Source of the DNA: Opitutia bacterium
GTDB lineage: Bacteria; Verrucomicrobiota; Verrucomicrobiia; Opitutales; T3Sed10-336
Direction: 5' to 3'
DNA length: 46,366 nt
Assembly: GCA_003566885.1 (NCBI GenBank)
Contig: PXBO01000015.1
Coordinates: forward strand, 1 to 46,366
Made by a program: the position numbers and the translations under genes
Shown: in pieces, positions 38,267 through 46,366 of the stretch
Layout: the number at the start of each line of letters is the position of its first letter
Position numbering within the stretch: the stretch's first letter is position 1
Notes under the pieces: generated by a model
The model's input: only the letters and a program-made list of their open reading frames with translations
The model's database searches: none
What the model was told of the DNA's origin: nothing

Positions 38267-41200
38267 ATGAACACCCTCGCCGACCGGGCCGTATCCGCGC
38301 GCGTTTTAACGACCTGCCTCCTATTGCTTTTCTGGATCTCGCCCGCAACTGCCACCGTCAGTTTGAACGAGGTCATGGCATCGAACAGCGGGACGATCGC
38401 GGACGAAGACGGCGATTACGAGGACTGGATCGAACTTCACAACCATGGGGCCTCCGAAGTCAATCTGTCCGGCTGGGGGCTTTCCAACGATCCGCAACGC
38501 CCTTTTCGCTGGACCCTGCCGTCCCAGACCACCCTGGGCGCCGGGGAATACCTGCTGATTTGGGCGTCGGGGAAGGACCGCCCGGGGACCGGGGGAGAAG
38601 GGGACGGAACGTTCCACACCGATTTCCGTATCAGTCTGACCGGGGAGCACGTTCTGTTGACCGATTCCCAAGGAGTTCTGGTCGATTACTTCCCGCCGAC
38701 CCTGGTACCGAACGACGTTTCAATCGGACGGGCGCCCGGCGAGGGAGATACCTGGTTTTTCTTTGACGAGCCCACCCCCGGCGGTCCGAACAACACCACG
38801 ACCTACGCCTCCGTGCTGGAGCCGGTCGCGTTTTCCCACCAGGGGGGATTCCACGAGGCGGATTTCGAACTGACCCTGTCGCATCCGGATCCGGACGCCA
38901 TAATTATCTATACCCTGGACGGTTCGACCCCCGACATCGACAATCTCGGCGGGACCACCTACCAATACAAAAACAACTGGCCGCACCGGCCGGGTGACGC
39001 CTTCGGGGAGTTTTTGGAGAACTCCTTCCAGAGTCACACCTACAACGGCCCCATTCCCATCGTCGACCGCAGAGACGAGCCCGACAAGCTCGCGCAGATC
39101 TCCTCGACATGGCACCCGGACCCCTACTACCTGCCAACGTCACCGGTTTACAAGGGAACGGTAGTCCAGGCGCGCGCCTACAAGCCGGGAAATCTGCCGT
39201 CGTATTCGAGAGGCAACACCTACTTTGTCGATCCTGACGGAAATCCCTTCGACCACCCCATTATGAGCCTCCATATCCAGGAGGATCTGCTTTTCGGCTA
39301 CGAGACGGGGCTTTATACCGCCGGGGCCGACTTCGACACCTGGCGGGAAAACAATCCGAATGCCAACGCCGGGGGGACGGAACACTGGCAGGCGCCGTAC
39401 AACTGGCAGCGTCGCGGGGATCAATGGGAATACCCGGGGCGGCTGGAGTTCTTCGAGCCCGACGCGGAAGAGGCGGGAATCAACCAGGGCATGGGATTCC
39501 GGATTCACGGCAACGCCAGCCGGGGGATGCGTTCCAAGAGCCTGCGCCTCTACGCCCGGAGTCGCTACGACAGCGTCAATGAATTCCAGCACCGGATCTT
39601 CCCTTGGGATGTCCCCTTCGCCACCAACCCGGAGAACGATGTTTTCAAAAGAATCCTCGTTCGAGGTCCCGGGTCGGGCGGTCCGTTCATGACCGATTGG
39701 GCCGTGCACGAGATGATGGGGGAGCTGTACGAGGGAGTAATGCGAGTGAGGAACGTGGTTCAGTTTATCAACGGGGAATACTGGGGACTGACCGCCGTGC
39801 GCGACCGGTTCGACCAGCACCACTTGGCAAACCATTTCCATATCGATCCCGACAACGCCGTCATCACCTGGTCAAGGGGATGGGGAGACGGCGGAACGTC
39901 GATCGACGTGGGCGAGTCGTCCGATATCGACCTGTACAATGCGACGAGATCCTTTATCCGCAACCAGAACATGGCCGACGACAACCTGTATCGGCAGGCG
40001 GAGGACATGCTGAGCATCCGGAGCTACATCGACCACCTCATCCCGAATATTTACTTCGGAAACACGCACTTCGAAACCGCTTTCTGGCGCGCCCGGGAAC
40101 CGTCGGACGATCAATTCGCCGACGGCCGGTGGCGGGTCCACACGCAGGATTTCGAATACGCTCTGAGCACGAGCAACTACCTGAGCACCGCGTTCAACAA
40201 CCTGGATATGTTCCGCAATCTCCTGGAGAATGACCGGTTCAAGAACCGATTCATCAATCGCTTCGCCGATTTGATCAACACGAGCTTCACGCCGGAACGG
40301 ATCGAATCCATGGTTCTGGAAGAGTACTCGAAGCTGGGCCCCGATCTTGACGACCACTACCACCGGTGGAGCATCGATTACTTTCTCCACGCGTACCCAT
40401 GGGAGCCGCACGACTCCCGGCACATGCGGGACCTGAACGACCTGATCGGCTATGCTTACGACCAACCCGCGCGCCAGCGGCAGCATATTCGCAATCGATT
40501 CGGCATTTCCGCCGACTCCGAAATCACCTTGAACGTATCGGATCCGGCATTGGGCCACGTGCGCATCAATACCGTGGAAATCCATGACCGCACGCCGGGC
40601 GTGGGTGACGTCCCCTACCCCTGGACCGGCGTTTACTTCAACGGAATTCCGATCGAGCTGGAAGCGATTCCGAACGACGGTTACCGCCTGGCCGGTTGGC
40701 AGGTGGACGGCCCGGTCGATTTCAACCACGTCAACATCCGAAACGATATCGGCTCGGGTCGATTCGAAATCGGCCTTGCGGAAGAAGGCGTGCGGCCTTT
40801 CACCGACGAGGAAATCACCGTCACTTCGCTTCCGCAGGAGTTGGCGGGGAAAATCGCTCTGAGAACCGCCAATTCCGAGACGACCTGGCTCTACGAGGGA
40901 GAGGCGACACCGACTACTGAAATCGAGTGGAGTTATACCGACGCGATTCCGGATCGCGGTCCCTCCGGCAATCCATTGTCCGGAGCGAACACGACGCTGG
41001 CGGACGGCTCCGGTGAGTTTCAACCTCCCGCAGGATCGCCCTCGGGATCCGATGAGTGGGTCGTCAGATCTGTCTTCGGAAACGGGGGTTCCGTGCTCCA
41101 GGCTTTCGGGCCCTCGGGATCGGGCGGACCGGCGAATGCGCGCGAACTCAAAACCACCATCCGCGATCTGGAACCCGGCACGGTTTATCCGGTGGCCGCC

Positions 41201-43636
41201 ATGTTTTGGCGCGATGGGAACCCCTGGTCGCTTCGCGCCGGTTTGCAATACGGAAACGACAACCACGAAAACGAGCTGTTCGACCATAACCATCCCGACG
41301 TCCTCAGCGCCGCGACCCTCAATTGGACCACCGATGTGATGGTAGCCGAAGGCAATCGGTTCTTTCACGCGGCATTTCTGGGGAACGCCACCGCCAATGA
41401 AAATGGGGAAATCGATGTTTTCATCCATGATCGCCCGACGGAGTTCCAGTCCATGCGCACCTGGTACGATGGCGTTGCGACGGGCTCTACAGCCTTATTA
41501 AAAAGCGGCCCCTACCTCGCCTTCGAAGTGGACCATGATACGACGGTTTACGTCATCAACCACCCTTCATACGAACCGGCCTGGCTCGCCTCGGAATTCA
41601 CCCCCACCGAAATGACGGTCGAAACCACCGCCGGAACCTTCGAGGTCTGGGGCAAAGCCGTTTCCGCGAATGAACTGATCGAGATTCCAGGACATGGAGG
41701 TGAGGTCCATGACCTGAACTACTGGGTCGTTCTGGGTGAAGGCCCGGACAGCGACTGGACCGCCGATTCCGTGGTGTCGTTGAACCTGACCGAAAACGTG
41801 ACGGTGACGGCCGTGTTCGAACCGATCCCCCTGGCCGAGCTTCCCATTGCCTTGCACGTGTGGGATTTCGAGGACGCGGCGGCGCTCCTGGAGCCGTCGT
41901 TCACCCTGGGAGGGGGAATGCTGAGTGTGCTGCCCGGTCCAACGACCGAAGCGATCTCGAATACGGGGGCCGATTTTGAAACGCAGCATCTGCGAGTCAA
42001 CAATCCACTCGACTCCGAACTCACCTTTTCCCTGCCCACCACGGGGTACGAGGAGATCGCGCTCGAGTTTCTGACCCGCCGGTCAGGACAGGGCGCCGGG
42101 ATACAAACCCTTTCCTATACCGTCGACGGCCAAACGTGGATCGAGTTCGACACCTACACCGTTTTCGATTCCGCGCCCCAGTTCCGCCGATTCGACTTCA
42201 CCGAGACCTCGGGCGTTTCCGACAACCCGGCCTTCGCGGCGCGCATCACCTTCGAGCGGGGAGAGGGAGGCGAGGCCGGAAACAATCGCTTCGATGATGT
42301 CGTACTCACCGGGAAGGGGCTGCCGGGCACGCTGCTGCCTCCTGTGGTCAACGCGGAGGCGATCCCTGAAAGGGTCATTCTGGCCGCCGCCGGTGACCCG
42401 GAGGTTCACAACCTGGAGGATTGGTTTACCCATCCCAATGAAGCGGCTCTAACGTTCCAGGCGTCCTCGACCGACGAGAGCGTGGTCGGGCCCTCCCTGG
42501 ATGGAGCTTTGCTGACCCTGTCCGGCGCCCGCGCCGGAGGCGTTACCGTGACCGTGCAGGCCGACGACGGGGTGAATCCCGCGGTAACGGCAACGTTTTA
42601 CATCCTGGTCTACCCGGAACCCTTTTCCCTGGCCGGGGGCAATTTCGCCTTCACCTCCTGGTCCTCGGACGAATCGGCGGGAAGCTTTCCCGCGCACATG
42701 CTTTTCCTGCAGAGCGACACCGACGATCCCGGTCTGGAGACCGACCTGCTTTTCGCTTATCACATCCCGGAGGATGACGCGGCGTCCCCGGAAAACGTGG
42801 CTTTTCCTTACGCCGCGAGCAGCCGTTCGCGAATCAACGGGCTCGGAGAATCCGGTATCAGTTTCATCAATACCGGACGCGGCCGTGATGTCGGCTCGGC
42901 ATTATTGGCTCTGGACACCACCGGGGTCAGCGAAATCGACCTGTCCTGGGTGGCCGGCACCGTTACGCCTAATAGCCGGGTCTATGCGTCGCGCCTGCAG
43001 TACCGGATTGGTTCCACTGCCGAGTGGGCCGATTTGCCGGGAATGGGTCCGATCGAGTACGTGCGCGACGAGGTCGCTGGTCACGAGGTCGTCTTCGGAC
43101 CCGTCCGTCTGCCAGAGGAACTGGAGGACCAACCGGAACTCCAACTCCAATGGCGTTACTACCATCAATCCGTAACCAGCGGCCCCCGGGCCGAGATTCG
43201 TCTGGACGACGTTCGCGTTGTCAGCGGAGCGTATCCGGCCGAGTCCTTCGCCCAATGGCTGAGCCGCAAATATCCCGACTTGTCGCCGGAAGAGGCGGAT
43301 CCGCACCAGGACCCGCACGGCGAGGGCCTTCCGCTCCTCCTGCGCTACGCACTTGACCGCGACGACAATCCGACGGGAGACGTTCAGGTCCCGATTTTCG
43401 AGACCGATGGCGAAACTCCCGCGCTGCGGTTCCGGCGCGATCCAGCCAAGTCCGATATCGCGTACGTGGTCGAAGCCTCGACGGATCTCGAGGATTGGAA
43501 CTCCGTTCTCTACGATTCACGCATTCACCTGGACCAAAACACCGACGGGGAATGGATGAGGATCGCCGATTCCGTCCCCTTCTCCGAAGCCGATGCACGG
43601 CGTTTCCTGCGGTTGCGAATCGTGAAGATCGATTGA
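38267..43636 (+). CDS. Giant secreted lamin-tail/CotH-kinase-like multidomain protein
   Basis: A 1789-residue secreted protein, start ATG 38267 (TTG at 38261 is possible). Signal peptide 'RVLTTCLLLLFWISPATATV' (about 12-31). A lamin-tail domain (about 32-170) opens with LNEVMASNSGTIADEDGDYE and DWIELHN. A chitobiase C-terminal-type (Fn3-associated) domain (about 185-315) contains IIIYTLDGSTPD. A CotH-like kinase domain (about 325-720) includes 'GFRIHGNASRGMRSKSLRLY' and NGEYWGLTAVRDRFDQHH; the usual Asp-rich active-site region reads VHTQDFEYAL. Residues about 905-1072 form a domain also found in the PEP-CTERM protein at 44880-45599. Beta-sandwich and cadherin/BIG-like segments follow, then a C-terminal module with 'DPHGEGLPLLLRYAL'. 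No PEP-CTERM helix. CotH proteins phosphorylate coat proteins in Bacillus; the activity here is unknown. Flanked by non-coding gaps, apparently monocistronic. Confidence 0.9.
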   Translation: MNTLADRAVSARVLTTCLLLLFWISPATATVSLNEVMASNSGTIADEDGDYEDWIELHNHGASEVNLSGWGLSNDPQRPFRWTLPSQTTLGAGEYLLIWASGKDRPGTGGEGDGTFHTDFRISLTGEHVLLTDSQGVLVDYFPPTLVPNDVSIGRAPGEGDTWFFFDEPTPGGPNNTTTYASVLEPVAFSHQGGFHEADFELTLSHPDPDAIIIYTLDGSTPDIDNLGGTTYQYKNNWPHRPGDAFGEFLENSFQSHTYNGPIPIVDRRDEPDKLAQISSTWHPDPYYLPTSPVYKGTVVQARAYKPGNLPSYSRGNTYFVDPDGNPFDHPIMSLHIQEDLLFGYETGLYTAGADFDTWRENNPNANAGGTEHWQAPYNWQRRGDQWEYPGRLEFFEPDAEEAGINQGMGFRIHGNASRGMRSKSLRLYARSRYDSVNEFQHRIFPWDVPFATNPENDVFKRILVRGPGSGGPFMTDWAVHEMMGELYEGVMRVRNVVQFINGEYWGLTAVRDRFDQHHLANHFHIDPDNAVITWSRGWGDGGTSIDVGESSDIDLYNATRSFIRNQNMADDNLYRQAEDMLSIRSYIDHLIPNIYFGNTHFETAFWRAREPSDDQFADGRWRVHTQDFEYALSTSNYLSTAFNNLDMFRNLLENDRFKNRFINRFADLINTSFTPERIESMVLEEYSKLGPDLDDHYHRWSIDYFLHAYPWEPHDSRHMRDLNDLIGYAYDQPARQRQHIRNRFGISADSEITLNVSDPALGHVRINTVEIHDRTPGVGDVPYPWTGVYFNGIPIELEAIPNDGYRLAGWQVDGPVDFNHVNIRNDIGSGRFEIGLAEEGVRPFTDEEITVTSLPQELAGKIALRTANSETTWLYEGEATPTTEIEWSYTDAIPDRGPSGNPLSGANTTLADGSGEFQPPAGSPSGSDEWVVRSVFGNGGSVLQAFGPSGSGGPANARELKTTIRDLEPGTVYPVAAMFWRDGNPWSLRAGLQYGNDNHENELFDHNHPDVLSAATLNWTTDVMVAEGNRFFHAAFLGNATANENGEIDVFIHDRPTEFQSMRTWYDGVATGSTALLKSGPYLAFEVDHDTTVYVINHPSYEPAWLASEFTPTEMTVETTAGTFEVWGKAVSANELIEIPGHGGEVHDLNYWVVLGEGPDSDWTADSVVSLNLTENVTVTAVFEPIPLAELPIALHVWDFEDAAALLEPSFTLGGGMLSVLPGPTTEAISNTGADFETQHLRVNNPLDSELTFSLPTTGYEEIALEFLTRRSGQGAGIQTLSYTVDGQTWIEFDTYTVFDSAPQFRRFDFTETSGVSDNPAFAARITFERGEGGEAGNNRFDDVVLTGKGLPGTLLPPVVNAEAIPERVILAAAGDPEVHNLEDWFTHPNEAALTFQASSTDESVVGPSLDGALLTLSGARAGGVTVTVQADDGVNPAVTATFYILVYPEPFSLAGGNFAFTSWSSDESAGSFPAHMLFLQSDTDDPGLETDLLFAYHIPEDDAASPENVAFPYAASSRSRINGLGESGISFINTGRGRDVGSALLALDTTGVSEIDLSWVAGTVTPNSRVYASRLQYRIGSTAEWADLPGMGPIEYVRDEVAGHEVVFGPVRLPEELEDQPELQLQWRYYHQSVTSGPRAEIRLDDVRVVSGAYPAESFAQWLSRKYPDLSPEEADPHQDPHGEGLPLLLRYALDRDDNPTGDVQVPIFETDGETPALRFRRDPAKSDIAYVVEASTDLEDWNSVLYDSRIHLDQNTDGEWMRIADSVPFSEADARRFLRLRIVKID

Positions 43637-43663
43637 TAGACCGGAAAACGGAAAGCGCCGCTT

Positions 43664-43745
43664 CGCCCGTCGCGAGCGCTTTCCGTGCCGGGCCTTGATT
43701 ATCGGGAAAGCGCTCGCAAGCGAGCACGCCACAAATGGATCAATG
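43664..43745. repeat. REP-like dispersed intergenic repeat, copy B
   Basis: Contains GTCGCGAGCGCTTTCC, then its partial inverse GGAAAGCGCTCGCAAGCGAG, then CACGCCACAAATGGATCAA and TGTCC. The blocks occur in the same order as in copy A (2529-2643), with about 20 extra bases in the middle. The two GCGCTTTCC/GGAAAGCGC arms allow a hairpin. It lies between the CotH gene and the RarD-like gene. Confidence 0.6.
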
Positions 43746-43802
43746 TCCATTTTCCACTGACGGTCTCGATAATCCCGCCGAAGAACCTCGCGCCACCGGG
43801 TA

Positions 43803-44744
43803 ATGTCTGATTGGAACCTTACCGTGTCCGGCGTCAATGTTGACCAAAAAAGAATCGGAATCCTCTCCGCCACCCTGGCCTATGTGCTGTGGGGCTTTCT
43901 GCCGTTGTACTGGCAATTGCTGGAAGGCATTCCCGCGTGGGAAGTATTGGCCCATCGGATCCTTTGGTCGGCGGTGCTGCTGGGAGTACTGATCGGTTTT
44001 TTGAACGGTTACCGGCACTTTTTCCTGGAATTTCTCTCTCTGGCCCGAGACCGCCGCAAGGCGATAGGAGTATTCGCGGCCGGCGTTGCGGTGTCGGTCA
44101 ATTGGGGAGTCTACATTTGGGCGGTCACCAACGCACACATTGTCGAGGCGAGCCTGGGATATTATATCAATCCCCTGCTGAGCATTCTGCTCGGCATGAT
44201 CTTCCTGCAGGAACGTTTTTCGCGCCTTCAGTGGCTGGCTATTGCCTTCGCTTTTTCCGGCGTTGCCTATATGACCCTCAATTTCGGATCGATTCCCTGG
44301 ATCGCCCTCAGCCTCGCCTTCTCATTCGGCGCCTATGGGCTGTTCAAAAAGGTCAGCCACCTCGGGCCGGTGGTGGGTCTGACCCTGGAAACGCTCCTGG
44401 TGCTTCCCATCGCGGGTATCTACCTGTTCTGGCTGCACCAATCCGGCGCGGGTTCCTTTTCCGCGGGCCGGCCGGGACTCCTTCTGATCGGGGGAGGACT
44501 CGCCACCATCATCCCCCTCCTCCTTTTCGCTTTGGCCACCAAACGAATCCCCCTTTCCATGATCGGCTTCCTGCAGTACTGCGCCCCGACGATCAAACTC
44601 CTGATCGGGGTTTTCTGGTTCAAGGAAGCGTTCACTCCCACCCACGCCATTACCTTCGCCCTCATCTGGATCGGTTTGATCCTCTACACCGCCACCCAGA
44701 TCCGGGAAGCAAAACGACCCACCCCACTGCCCAATCCGACTTAG
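43803..44744 (+). CDS. rarD: RarD-type EamA/DMT-superfamily permease
   Basis: A ten-helix inner-membrane transporter of the drug/metabolite superfamily, RarD subfamily; substrates are not firmly known (chloramphenicol sensitivity or amino-acid efflux have been suggested for relatives). It is 313 residues, the family norm. Visible hallmarks are the first helix 'RIGILSATLAYVLWGFLPLY' then WQLLEGIPAWEVLAHRILWS, 'VSVNWGVYIWAVTNAHIVEA' and SLGYYINPLLSILLGMIFLQE. The second half has 'ALSLAFSFGAYGLFKKVSHL' and 'TKRIPLSMIGFLQYCAPTIK'. An in-frame internal start would remove the first helix, so 43803 was kept. Monocistronic, convergent with the second PEP-CTERM gene. Confidence 0.93.
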   Translation: MSDWNLTVSGVNVDQKRIGILSATLAYVLWGFLPLYWQLLEGIPAWEVLAHRILWSAVLLGVLIGFLNGYRHFFLEFLSLARDRRKAIGVFAAGVAVSVNWGVYIWAVTNAHIVEASLGYYINPLLSILLGMIFLQERFSRLQWLAIAFAFSGVAYMTLNFGSIPWIALSLAFSFGAYGLFKKVSHLGPVVGLTLETLLVLPIAGIYLFWLHQSGAGSFSAGRPGLLLIGGGLATIIPLLLFALATKRIPLSMIGFLQYCAPTIKLLIGVFWFKEAFTPTHAITFALIWIGLILYTATQIREAKRPTPLPNPT

Positions 44745-44817
44745 GTGGAATGGCATCCCGAACGGACTCGAATTCGCCGGATGAACGCGGCTTGGATCGA
44801 GTCAATTCCGCAAAGAC

Positions 44818-44854
44818 AAAAAAAGGAGCCGCCGCCTCAAAAGGCGACGGCTCC
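44818..44854 (-). terminator. Intrinsic terminator of the second PEP-CTERM gene
   Basis: In minus orientation a 13-bp stem (GGAGCCGTCGCCT with AGGCGGCGGCTCC, one mismatch) and a 4-nt loop are followed by a run of seven T. It lies 25 bp after the stop of the PEP-CTERM gene, a textbook rho-independent terminator. Confidence 0.92.
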
Positions 44855-44879
44855 CGGAAGATTCTCAGACTCTCAGGAC

Positions 44880-45599
44880 CTACCGCCGGAACCGGCTACG
44901 AAGCAGGATGACCGCAAACACCCCGAGCCCGGCCAGCAGCGCGTAGGTGCTCGGCTCAGGCACCACGGAGTAACCGACGCCGTCGTACCAAGTGCGCTGA
45001 TTGTTCGAATCGGCCGGTCCATCATTGATAAAGACGCTGAATTCAGTGCCGGTGAAGGTTCCCACATGAGCTTGGAACAGCCGGCGATTTCCTTCGGCAA
45101 CCATAACGTCGCCGGTAAACGGATTTTCCGTCAGAGAGGAACTGAAGATCGTCGCATCCCCTCCCTCATAAAACTGCACCACTCCTTCGGTCGTCGGGGT
45201 GAACAACGGCCAATCGCCGTCACCCTCTTCCAATGCCGCCCGGATACGCCACCCATTGTTGGGAACGTCGGACCAGAAATACACGAACACATCATAGGTG
45301 TCAGGGCTTAGGCCATTGACGTTGGTCCGCAACGGGTGCGAGTTTTCCCCGACCTCGGGATTGATTTCATTGCCCCCGTTCTCGTAAATCGAGGCATTAT
45401 TGCCAAAAGGACGGTTATTCCATCCCCCGGCGACCGCAGTGTTAGAACCCGGAGTCCACACACTGCCATCCAGCAAGGTGGTATTTCCTGCTTCACCGTG
45501 AGTCGCATCCACGTAGGTGATGGGGAGAAACGTCTGGGCCGAGGCGACATAGGCGAACATTGTCGTCGCCGCCAATCCCGTTAATATAAGTCTTTTCAT
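44880..45599 (-). CDS. Small PEP-CTERM protein sharing a domain with the CotH protein
   Basis: A 239-residue secreted protein. It has a signal peptide (MKRLILTGLAATTMFAYVAS, ending AQT near residue 22), then a single domain (about 30-210) and a PEP-CTERM sorting signal at the end (VVPEPSTYALLAGLGVFAVI, then Arg-rich RSRFRR). The domain contains GNTTLLDGS (39-46), 'DTYDVFVYFWSDVPNNGW' (100-117) and DVMVAEGNRRLFQAHVG (164-180). It ends in RTWYDGVGY. Matching segments occur in the giant protein at 38267-43636 (NTTLADGSG, WRDGNPWSLRAGL, DVMVAEGNRFFHAAFLG, RTWYDGVATGS). The fold looks like an all-beta sandwich; I do not recognise a named family. No Shine-Dalgarno is evident before the ATG at 45599. 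It ends in a strong terminator and stands alone. Confidence 0.85.
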   Translation of the reverse strand: MKRLILTGLAATTMFAYVASAQTFLPITYVDATHGEAGNTTLLDGSVWTPGSNTAVAGGWNNRPFGNNASIYENGGNEINPEVGENSHPLRTNVNGLSPDTYDVFVYFWSDVPNNGWRIRAALEEGDGDWPLFTPTTEGVVQFYEGGDATIFSSSLTENPFTGDVMVAEGNRRLFQAHVGTFTGTEFSVFINDGPADSNNQRTWYDGVGYSVVPEPSTYALLAGLGVFAVILLRSRFRR

Positions 45600-45994: not shown

Positions 45995-46366
45995 TCACTC
46001 CGCCATTCTGACCGTTAACCGGAGAAATCCCGTGGTCGCTTCTTCCGAAACCTGCCCCCGGACTCGAACCTCCTGCGTGTTCGCCGAATCACCCGGGCCG
46101 CGGAAAATTTCCACCACGTGCGGGGATCCCTCGTTCCAGGCGCCTTCGCCGAGATTTTCCGACACCTGGGGAACGTAATCGATATCGTCGATATCGATCC
46201 TCTCCTGGTAAATCAGGATCAGGATGTCGTCGCCGTCGGGAACAATCCGCGACAGATCGGCGGAAGCCGCGGTAATCCAAGGATCCAGTCCCAGGGCATA
46301 CTTCAGCAGGTTCGGCACTCCATCCCCCGCCGGATCCGCGTTCGGTCCACTGATCTCGGGTTGATC
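45995..46366 (-). CDS. 3' end of a secreted-protein gene (partial, runs off the window)
   Basis: An open frame enters from the right edge and stops at 45995; 123 residues are visible. It begins in ...GPNADPAGDGVPNLLKYALG and continues through an all-beta segment ('ILILIYQERIDIDDIDYVPQ') to 'GFLRLTVRMAE'. The 'ADP.GDG.PNLLKYALGLDP' phrase is a recurrent C-terminal module of verrucomicrobial exoproteins. It corresponds to the end of the giant CotH protein (DPHGEGLPLLLRYAL ... YVVEASTDLEDW ... RFLRLRI). A GTG at 46318 is inside this motif and is not the true start. The N-terminal domains are outside the window, so the protein's activity is unknown. It ends without a PEP-CTERM helix. Confidence 0.75.
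   Translation of the reverse strand, partial: DQPEISGPNADPAGDGVPNLLKYALGLDPWITAASADLSRIVPDGDDILILIYQERIDIDDIDYVPQVSENLGEGAWNEGSPHVVEIFRGPGDSANTQEVRVRGQVSEEATTGFLRLTVRMAE

Follow-up and report, generated by a model that had tools for sequence, protein, structure and literature searches.

The window, a 46,366-nucleotide stretch of DNA from an Opitutia bacterium (contig PXBO01000015.1), encodes a giant secreted LTD-CotH protein and a small PEP-CTERM protein that share an unnamed module of about 170–190 residues. Judged by sequence comparison, the module is a genuine homologous family, patchily distributed across two phyla, Verrucomicrobiota and Planctomycetota. As a sequence family it appears to be new relative to Pfam, NCBIfam and PDB, and the kind of module is one already known. 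We consider it probable, at about two chances in three, that the module is a beta-sandwich that binds carbohydrate, or a recognition domain of the carbohydrate-binding type. Carbohydrate binding, the sugar concerned and the surface anchoring of module proteins are points that we infer.

The first gene (38267..43636, + strand) encodes a 1789-aa protein, identified by ORF and Pfam analysis, with a single copy of the module. Its lamin tail domain (residues 26–141; 38342..38689, +; PF00932, 6e-17) and CotH domain (residues 412–702; 39500..40372, +; PF08757, 1e-20) score 62.4 and 74.8 bits against curated cut-offs of 34.3 and 23.8, respectively, which makes it a member of the LTD-CotH proteins. The second gene (44880..45599, − strand) encodes a 239-aa protein consisting of an N-terminal hydrophobic segment, the module and a PEP-CTERM tail (ORF; PF07589, 7.6e-6). 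Residues 1–21, ending in A-S-A, were read by eye as a probable signal peptide (45537..45599, −), and residues 213–236 form the sorting tail (44892..44963, −), with a C-terminal PEP motif, a hydrophobic stretch and a basic end, which exceeds its cut-offs in both PF07589 (26.2 bits vs 20.7) and TIGR02595 (19.5 vs 16). Both ORFs are as first described in the sequence-only reading, as is their separation of 1.2 kb; the two modules lie 3.5 kb apart. An EamA-family transporter gene (43803..44744, +; PF00892), probably unrelated to the module genes, lies between them, and the neighbours in the window, this gene and dxs, offer no polysaccharide context. At the window edge, phmmer aligns the visible part of a truncated ORF (45995..46366, −) to the CotH protein's C-terminal tail (3.6e-6), and therefore another large exoprotein may adjoin the small protein.

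The proposal that the two proteins share a domain stood up to comparison. BLASTP aligned CotH protein residues 907–1071 with small-protein residues 38–209 over 179 columns (65.5 bits, E = 5e-16, 33% identity); across 1,000 shuffles of the mature chain, the highest score was 30 bits, under half the real score of ~65. A profile of 66 relatives, from which the window copies were omitted, found the small protein at 1.6e-47 and the CotH protein at 1.5e-41, both below 1e-40, and this is the significant profile match that had been named as support for the shared domain. When the small protein was searched against the whole genome, the CotH stretch was the sole other near-full-length match (E = 8e-14), and the remaining matches were confined to the C-terminal end and resembled PEP-CTERM tails (one inspected). 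The motifs listed earlier, NTTL.DGS, W..RA.L..G, DVMVAEGNR and RTWYDGV, are all present, and the strongly conserved positions of the module are D, N-T, W, R, Y and R..WYDG. The module starts ~10–15 residues nearer the N-terminus than first given, at Y(V/T)DA. Its limits are therefore residues ~29–213 of the small protein (44961..45515, −), where it makes up almost the entire mature chain, as had been noted, and residues 890–1075 of the CotH protein (40934..41491, +), both supported by BLASTP and profile matches and by AlphaFold models.

The libraries behind the statement of novelty were Pfam (2025), NCBIfam (2026) and PDB (2026). When 67 copies were scanned singly, no Pfam or NCBIfam family covered any of them, stray weak matches aside, in agreement with the expected absence of an existing Pfam entry. 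Pfam returned LTD, CotH and weak repeats for the CotH protein, with nothing over the module, and only the PEP-CTERM tail of the small protein passed its Pfam cut-off. Likeness to Golvesin_C (PF25275) and CBM_4_9 (PF02018) consists of weak matches in single copies among the 67, at E about 0.01 and 0.05 (0.0097 and 0.054); the Golvesin_C match has 17.1 bits vs a cut-off of 31.6, and 0.054 is the best E of any Pfam CBM family. The 67 copies had no full-length sequence match in PDB, one BNR_4 carrier and one lyase-like carrier had no PDB sequence match, and profile comparison with Pfam and PDB did not connect the module by sequence with any proven CBM. A match to Csy3 in PDB, seen with an 8-sequence profile (E 0.007), was taken as chance and was gone with 67 sequences. 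The open-access literature yielded no published description of the module.

One local resemblance deserves separate treatment. The 67-copy profile matched fibronectin type III among PDB sequences (positions 31–94 of 175, E = 2.7e-7), and fn3 in Pfam weakly matched 5 of the 67 copies (best E 0.02). The likeness is centred on 'L.TT..GL.PG..Y.V'; on this comparison it is partial, lying around 'GL.PG..Y.V' without covering the module, and a seven-strand fibronectin type III domain has ~90 residues, whereas the match spans ~64 of 175 positions of a module about twice as long. With a match that is local only, the module does not class as fibronectin type III, and the 64 matched positions might fit a merely structural beta-sandwich as well. 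The module could, on that account, be a beta-sandwich spacer with a purely structural or adhesive role in PVC surface proteins, fibronectin III- or Ig-like and with no specific ligand, which suits giant modular surface proteins and the Ig, TSP3, Big_5 and PATR spacer repeats often found next to the module. We think this rather unlikely, since there is nothing to space in 41 frames for small exported proteins where the module is about the whole mature chain, its polar and aromatic positions given above are strongly conserved, and it replaces LamG/NPCBM in one FecR-like protein.

AlphaFold models of both window copies, built from 8-sequence alignments, are all-beta (pTM 0.73 and mean pLDDT 69.5 for the small protein; pTM 0.81 and mean pLDDT 77.9 for the CotH module). 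Their strand order corresponds, judged along the alignment rather than by superposition, and the models are consistent with the expectation of a single beta fold. Foldseek searches against PDB ranked CBM4-2 first for the small-protein model, and the neighbours of the two models included CBM4-2, CBM27, CBM6, CBM36, CBM61 and alginate- and porphyran-binding CBMs, together with the lectins Nictaba and PP2 and other beta-sandwich proteins. For the CotH model, the best match was hinokiresinol synthase, a beta-sandwich enzyme and no CBM. TM-scores were low (about 0.3–0.45, with a best E of about 1e-4 to 1e-3), and therefore only a fold class is suggested. Like CBM4, CBM6, CBM27, CBM36 and CBM61, the module is predicted to be all-beta, is of similar size and is accessory to polysaccharide-active domains in exoproteins, in one to three copies; unlike them, it has no profile-detectable sequence similarity to Pfam CBM families and superposes only at the TM-scores above.

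Fusion partners bear on the same question. Among 34 multidomain carriers, 14 have BNR_4 beside the module (Pfam), and a BD-FAE-type esterase is fused to it in one carrier; other fused partners are Laminin_G_3 with Ig domains, dockerin and TSP3 repeats, and further carriers combine PATR repeats with a PEP-CTERM tail. Within such chains, the module is contiguous with putative carbohydrate-active enzyme domains. BNR_4 (PF15892) is an annotated domain of the characterised PL25 ulvan lyase SH2L_Ulv3 (PMC13193363); a BNR_4 domain is no proof of a lyase, and BNR_4 and LamG speak for carbohydrate binding through guilt by association. Module genes have ECF sigma / FecR-LamG pairs among their neighbours, as well as genes for a sulfatase, NAGLU, a GH2 enzyme, a sugar transporter and an AraC regulator. 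Given BNR_4 and the sulfatase as partners, acidic or sulfated polysaccharides are the first ligand candidates. The ECF sigma genes paired with FecR-LamG (or FecR-NPCBM) genes lie near module clusters at four loci (L121, L122, L123 and L128) in several genomes, including one Verrucomicrobiota genome. At another locus (L013 / L016, G248:C271), a frameshift or sequencing error divides a stand-alone module between two frames, next to a BNR_4-like gene.

The enzyme found by Foldseek for the CotH model, the strongly conserved polar residues and the existence of stand-alone chains would be in keeping with a small catalytic beta-jelly-roll domain such as a lyase or esterase. This is extremely unlikely in our view, because the usual fusion partners (BNR_4 and BD-FAE) already look catalytic, the module often occurs in two or three copies per protein, and it is found once in an anti-sigma-like protein; binding therefore fits better than catalysis.

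That anti-sigma-like protein comes from one genome (G800), in which a 471-aa FecR-like protein (L125:8030-9442) adjoins an ECF sigma gene and a stand-alone module gene. Its first ~260 residues match FecR-LamG/FecR-NPCBM proteins (BLASTP, E 2e-15 to 6e-5); Pfam calls no FecR there, and the FecR identity is therefore taken from the BLASTP comparisons. The module occupies residues 291–458 (E 8e-16), the slot held by LamG_3 or NPCBM in the relatives. It thus resembles Laminin_G_3 and NPCBM of FecR-like anti-sigma proteins in its post-FecR position and differs from them in being another sequence family; this one clear swap would put the module in the slot of known glycan-binding-type folds.

If the module is a carbohydrate-binding beta-sandwich, it would hold the catalytic domain on its polysaccharide in enzymes, act as a cell-bound lectin in stand-alone proteins that have a PEP-CTERM tail, equip the CotH protein, a large surface protein, for glycan recognition, and serve as an extracellular sensor in the FecR-like anti-sigma protein. 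A more ambitious form of this reading, in which one module is at once the FecR-like sensor, the PEP-CTERM surface lectin and the targeting part of adjoining exoenzymes in PVC bacteria, is quite unlikely as a whole; were it true, sensing, capture and degradation would share one specificity.

We recorded about 130 module-bearing reading frames in all. Of 388 Verrucomicrobiota genomes sampled, 12 carried the module, and it was present in 25 of 145 genomes of one Verrucomicrobiota family; in the phylum to which a Pirellulales genome belongs, it was present in 8 of 392 sampled genomes and in 23 of 161 genomes of one order; named loci fall in Phycisphaerae, Pirellulales and Planctomycetales. Several copies were common in carrier genomes (up to 13 matches per genome), and the one further genome from the genus of the window genome, together with six more from its family, gave no match at E < 0.001. 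Depth searches covered Verrucomicrobiota, Planctomycetota, plasmids and viral contigs, and the contig scan of all GTDB used strict patterns. A mobile-element or phage origin was considered and set aside, as there was no plasmid match (tblastn) and no viral-contig match (close-relative scan).

The module occurs nearly as the whole chain in 41 frames of 200–302 aa, often with a PEP-CTERM tail. The suggestion that it is reused by exosortase-sorted and non-sorted exoproteins accordingly holds for stand-alone and fused reuse, across two phyla; for the exosortase-sorted part it comes down to the PEP-CTERM tail, because neither PF09721 nor TIGR04178 found an exosortase in the 67.6%-complete genome of the window. 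Several PEP-CTERM-like tails occur in that genome and yet no exosortase was matched, which may reflect a missing contig or a divergent sortase.

Twenty of the 41 stand-alone frames have another module gene no more than 5 kb away, where 0.28 would be expected under uniform placement; these are not all independent cases, because at least three genomes (G759, G811 and G862) share closely similar versions of a cluster, and a few of the cases could be genes broken up by a frameshift. The pair in the window is therefore one example of an arrangement that recurs. One way to read it is docking, with the stand-alone PEP-CTERM protein binding the adjacent large protein, at its module or another part, and fastening it to the cell surface: the small partner would be anchored through its PEP-CTERM tail, and many fused proteins have no such tail of their own. 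Several fused proteins do have one, however, 21 of the 41 stand-alone genes lack a module neighbour at that distance (some near contig ends), and a shared substrate predicts clustering equally, which leaves docking decidedly improbable.

Stand-alone and fused forms are intermixed on the module tree. A single clade of stand-alone copies was rejected (AU p = 0.0002), and at least nine changes between stand-alone and fused forms were counted on the module tree. The window pair could have arisen when a segment of one module gene was duplicated locally, which is compatible with any functional reading; the best tree holding both copies together was not rejected (AU p = 0.615) and is slightly likelier than the tree from a quick unconstrained search. 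We regard such a duplication as possible, though on the doubtful side: the copies fall apart in that unconstrained tree, and they are 39% identical to each other vs up to 45% (CotH module) and 42% (small protein) for their closest Planctomycetota copies. By these identities, the split between the window copies would be old even if they are sisters.

Within the CotH protein, the module lies in a variable stretch. Relatives of the same family in three genomes (G003, G004 and G005) align over CotH residues ~114–813 and resume at 1345–1391, with 0–72 residues between both aligned parts, and the module was absent from the examined regions of all three. Because this stretch is missing in three orthologues, the segment holding the module is accessory, placed between the conserved CotH core and a conserved C-terminal part; the same absence may reflect gain in the window protein or loss in the relatives. 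Other giant CotH-type proteins fetched from the same genome contained no module. What the window protein has in common with giants of its genome is the C-terminal region outside the module (residues 1194–1786; 41846..43624, +), which has no Pfam call and is 43–56% identical to several of them (1,762–2,968 aa); its last ~130 residues recur even more widely. The segment between module and C-terminal region (residues ~1076–1193; 41492..41845, 'TTVYVINHPSYEPAWLASEF...FEVWGKAV') likewise has no Pfam call and is possibly another small beta domain.

The cellulosomal LTD-CotH protein Cthe_0239 has the order LTD, LTD, Fn3, CotH (PMC6083626). The window protein is similarly secreted with LTD and CotH, and the setting of Cthe_0239 is polysaccharide degradation; unlike Cthe_0239, it is larger, has no dockerin call and carries a module not listed for that protein.

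The analysis gives boundaries to a recurring extracellular module that Pfam, NCBIfam and PDB leave blank, in hosts rich in unannotated giant exoproteins. Its stand-alone form of about 190 residues is directly expressible, and the FecR swap renders a sensing role testable. If carbohydrate binding is true, the module would found a CBM family of its own and could mark polysaccharide loci in Verrucomicrobiota and Planctomycetota.
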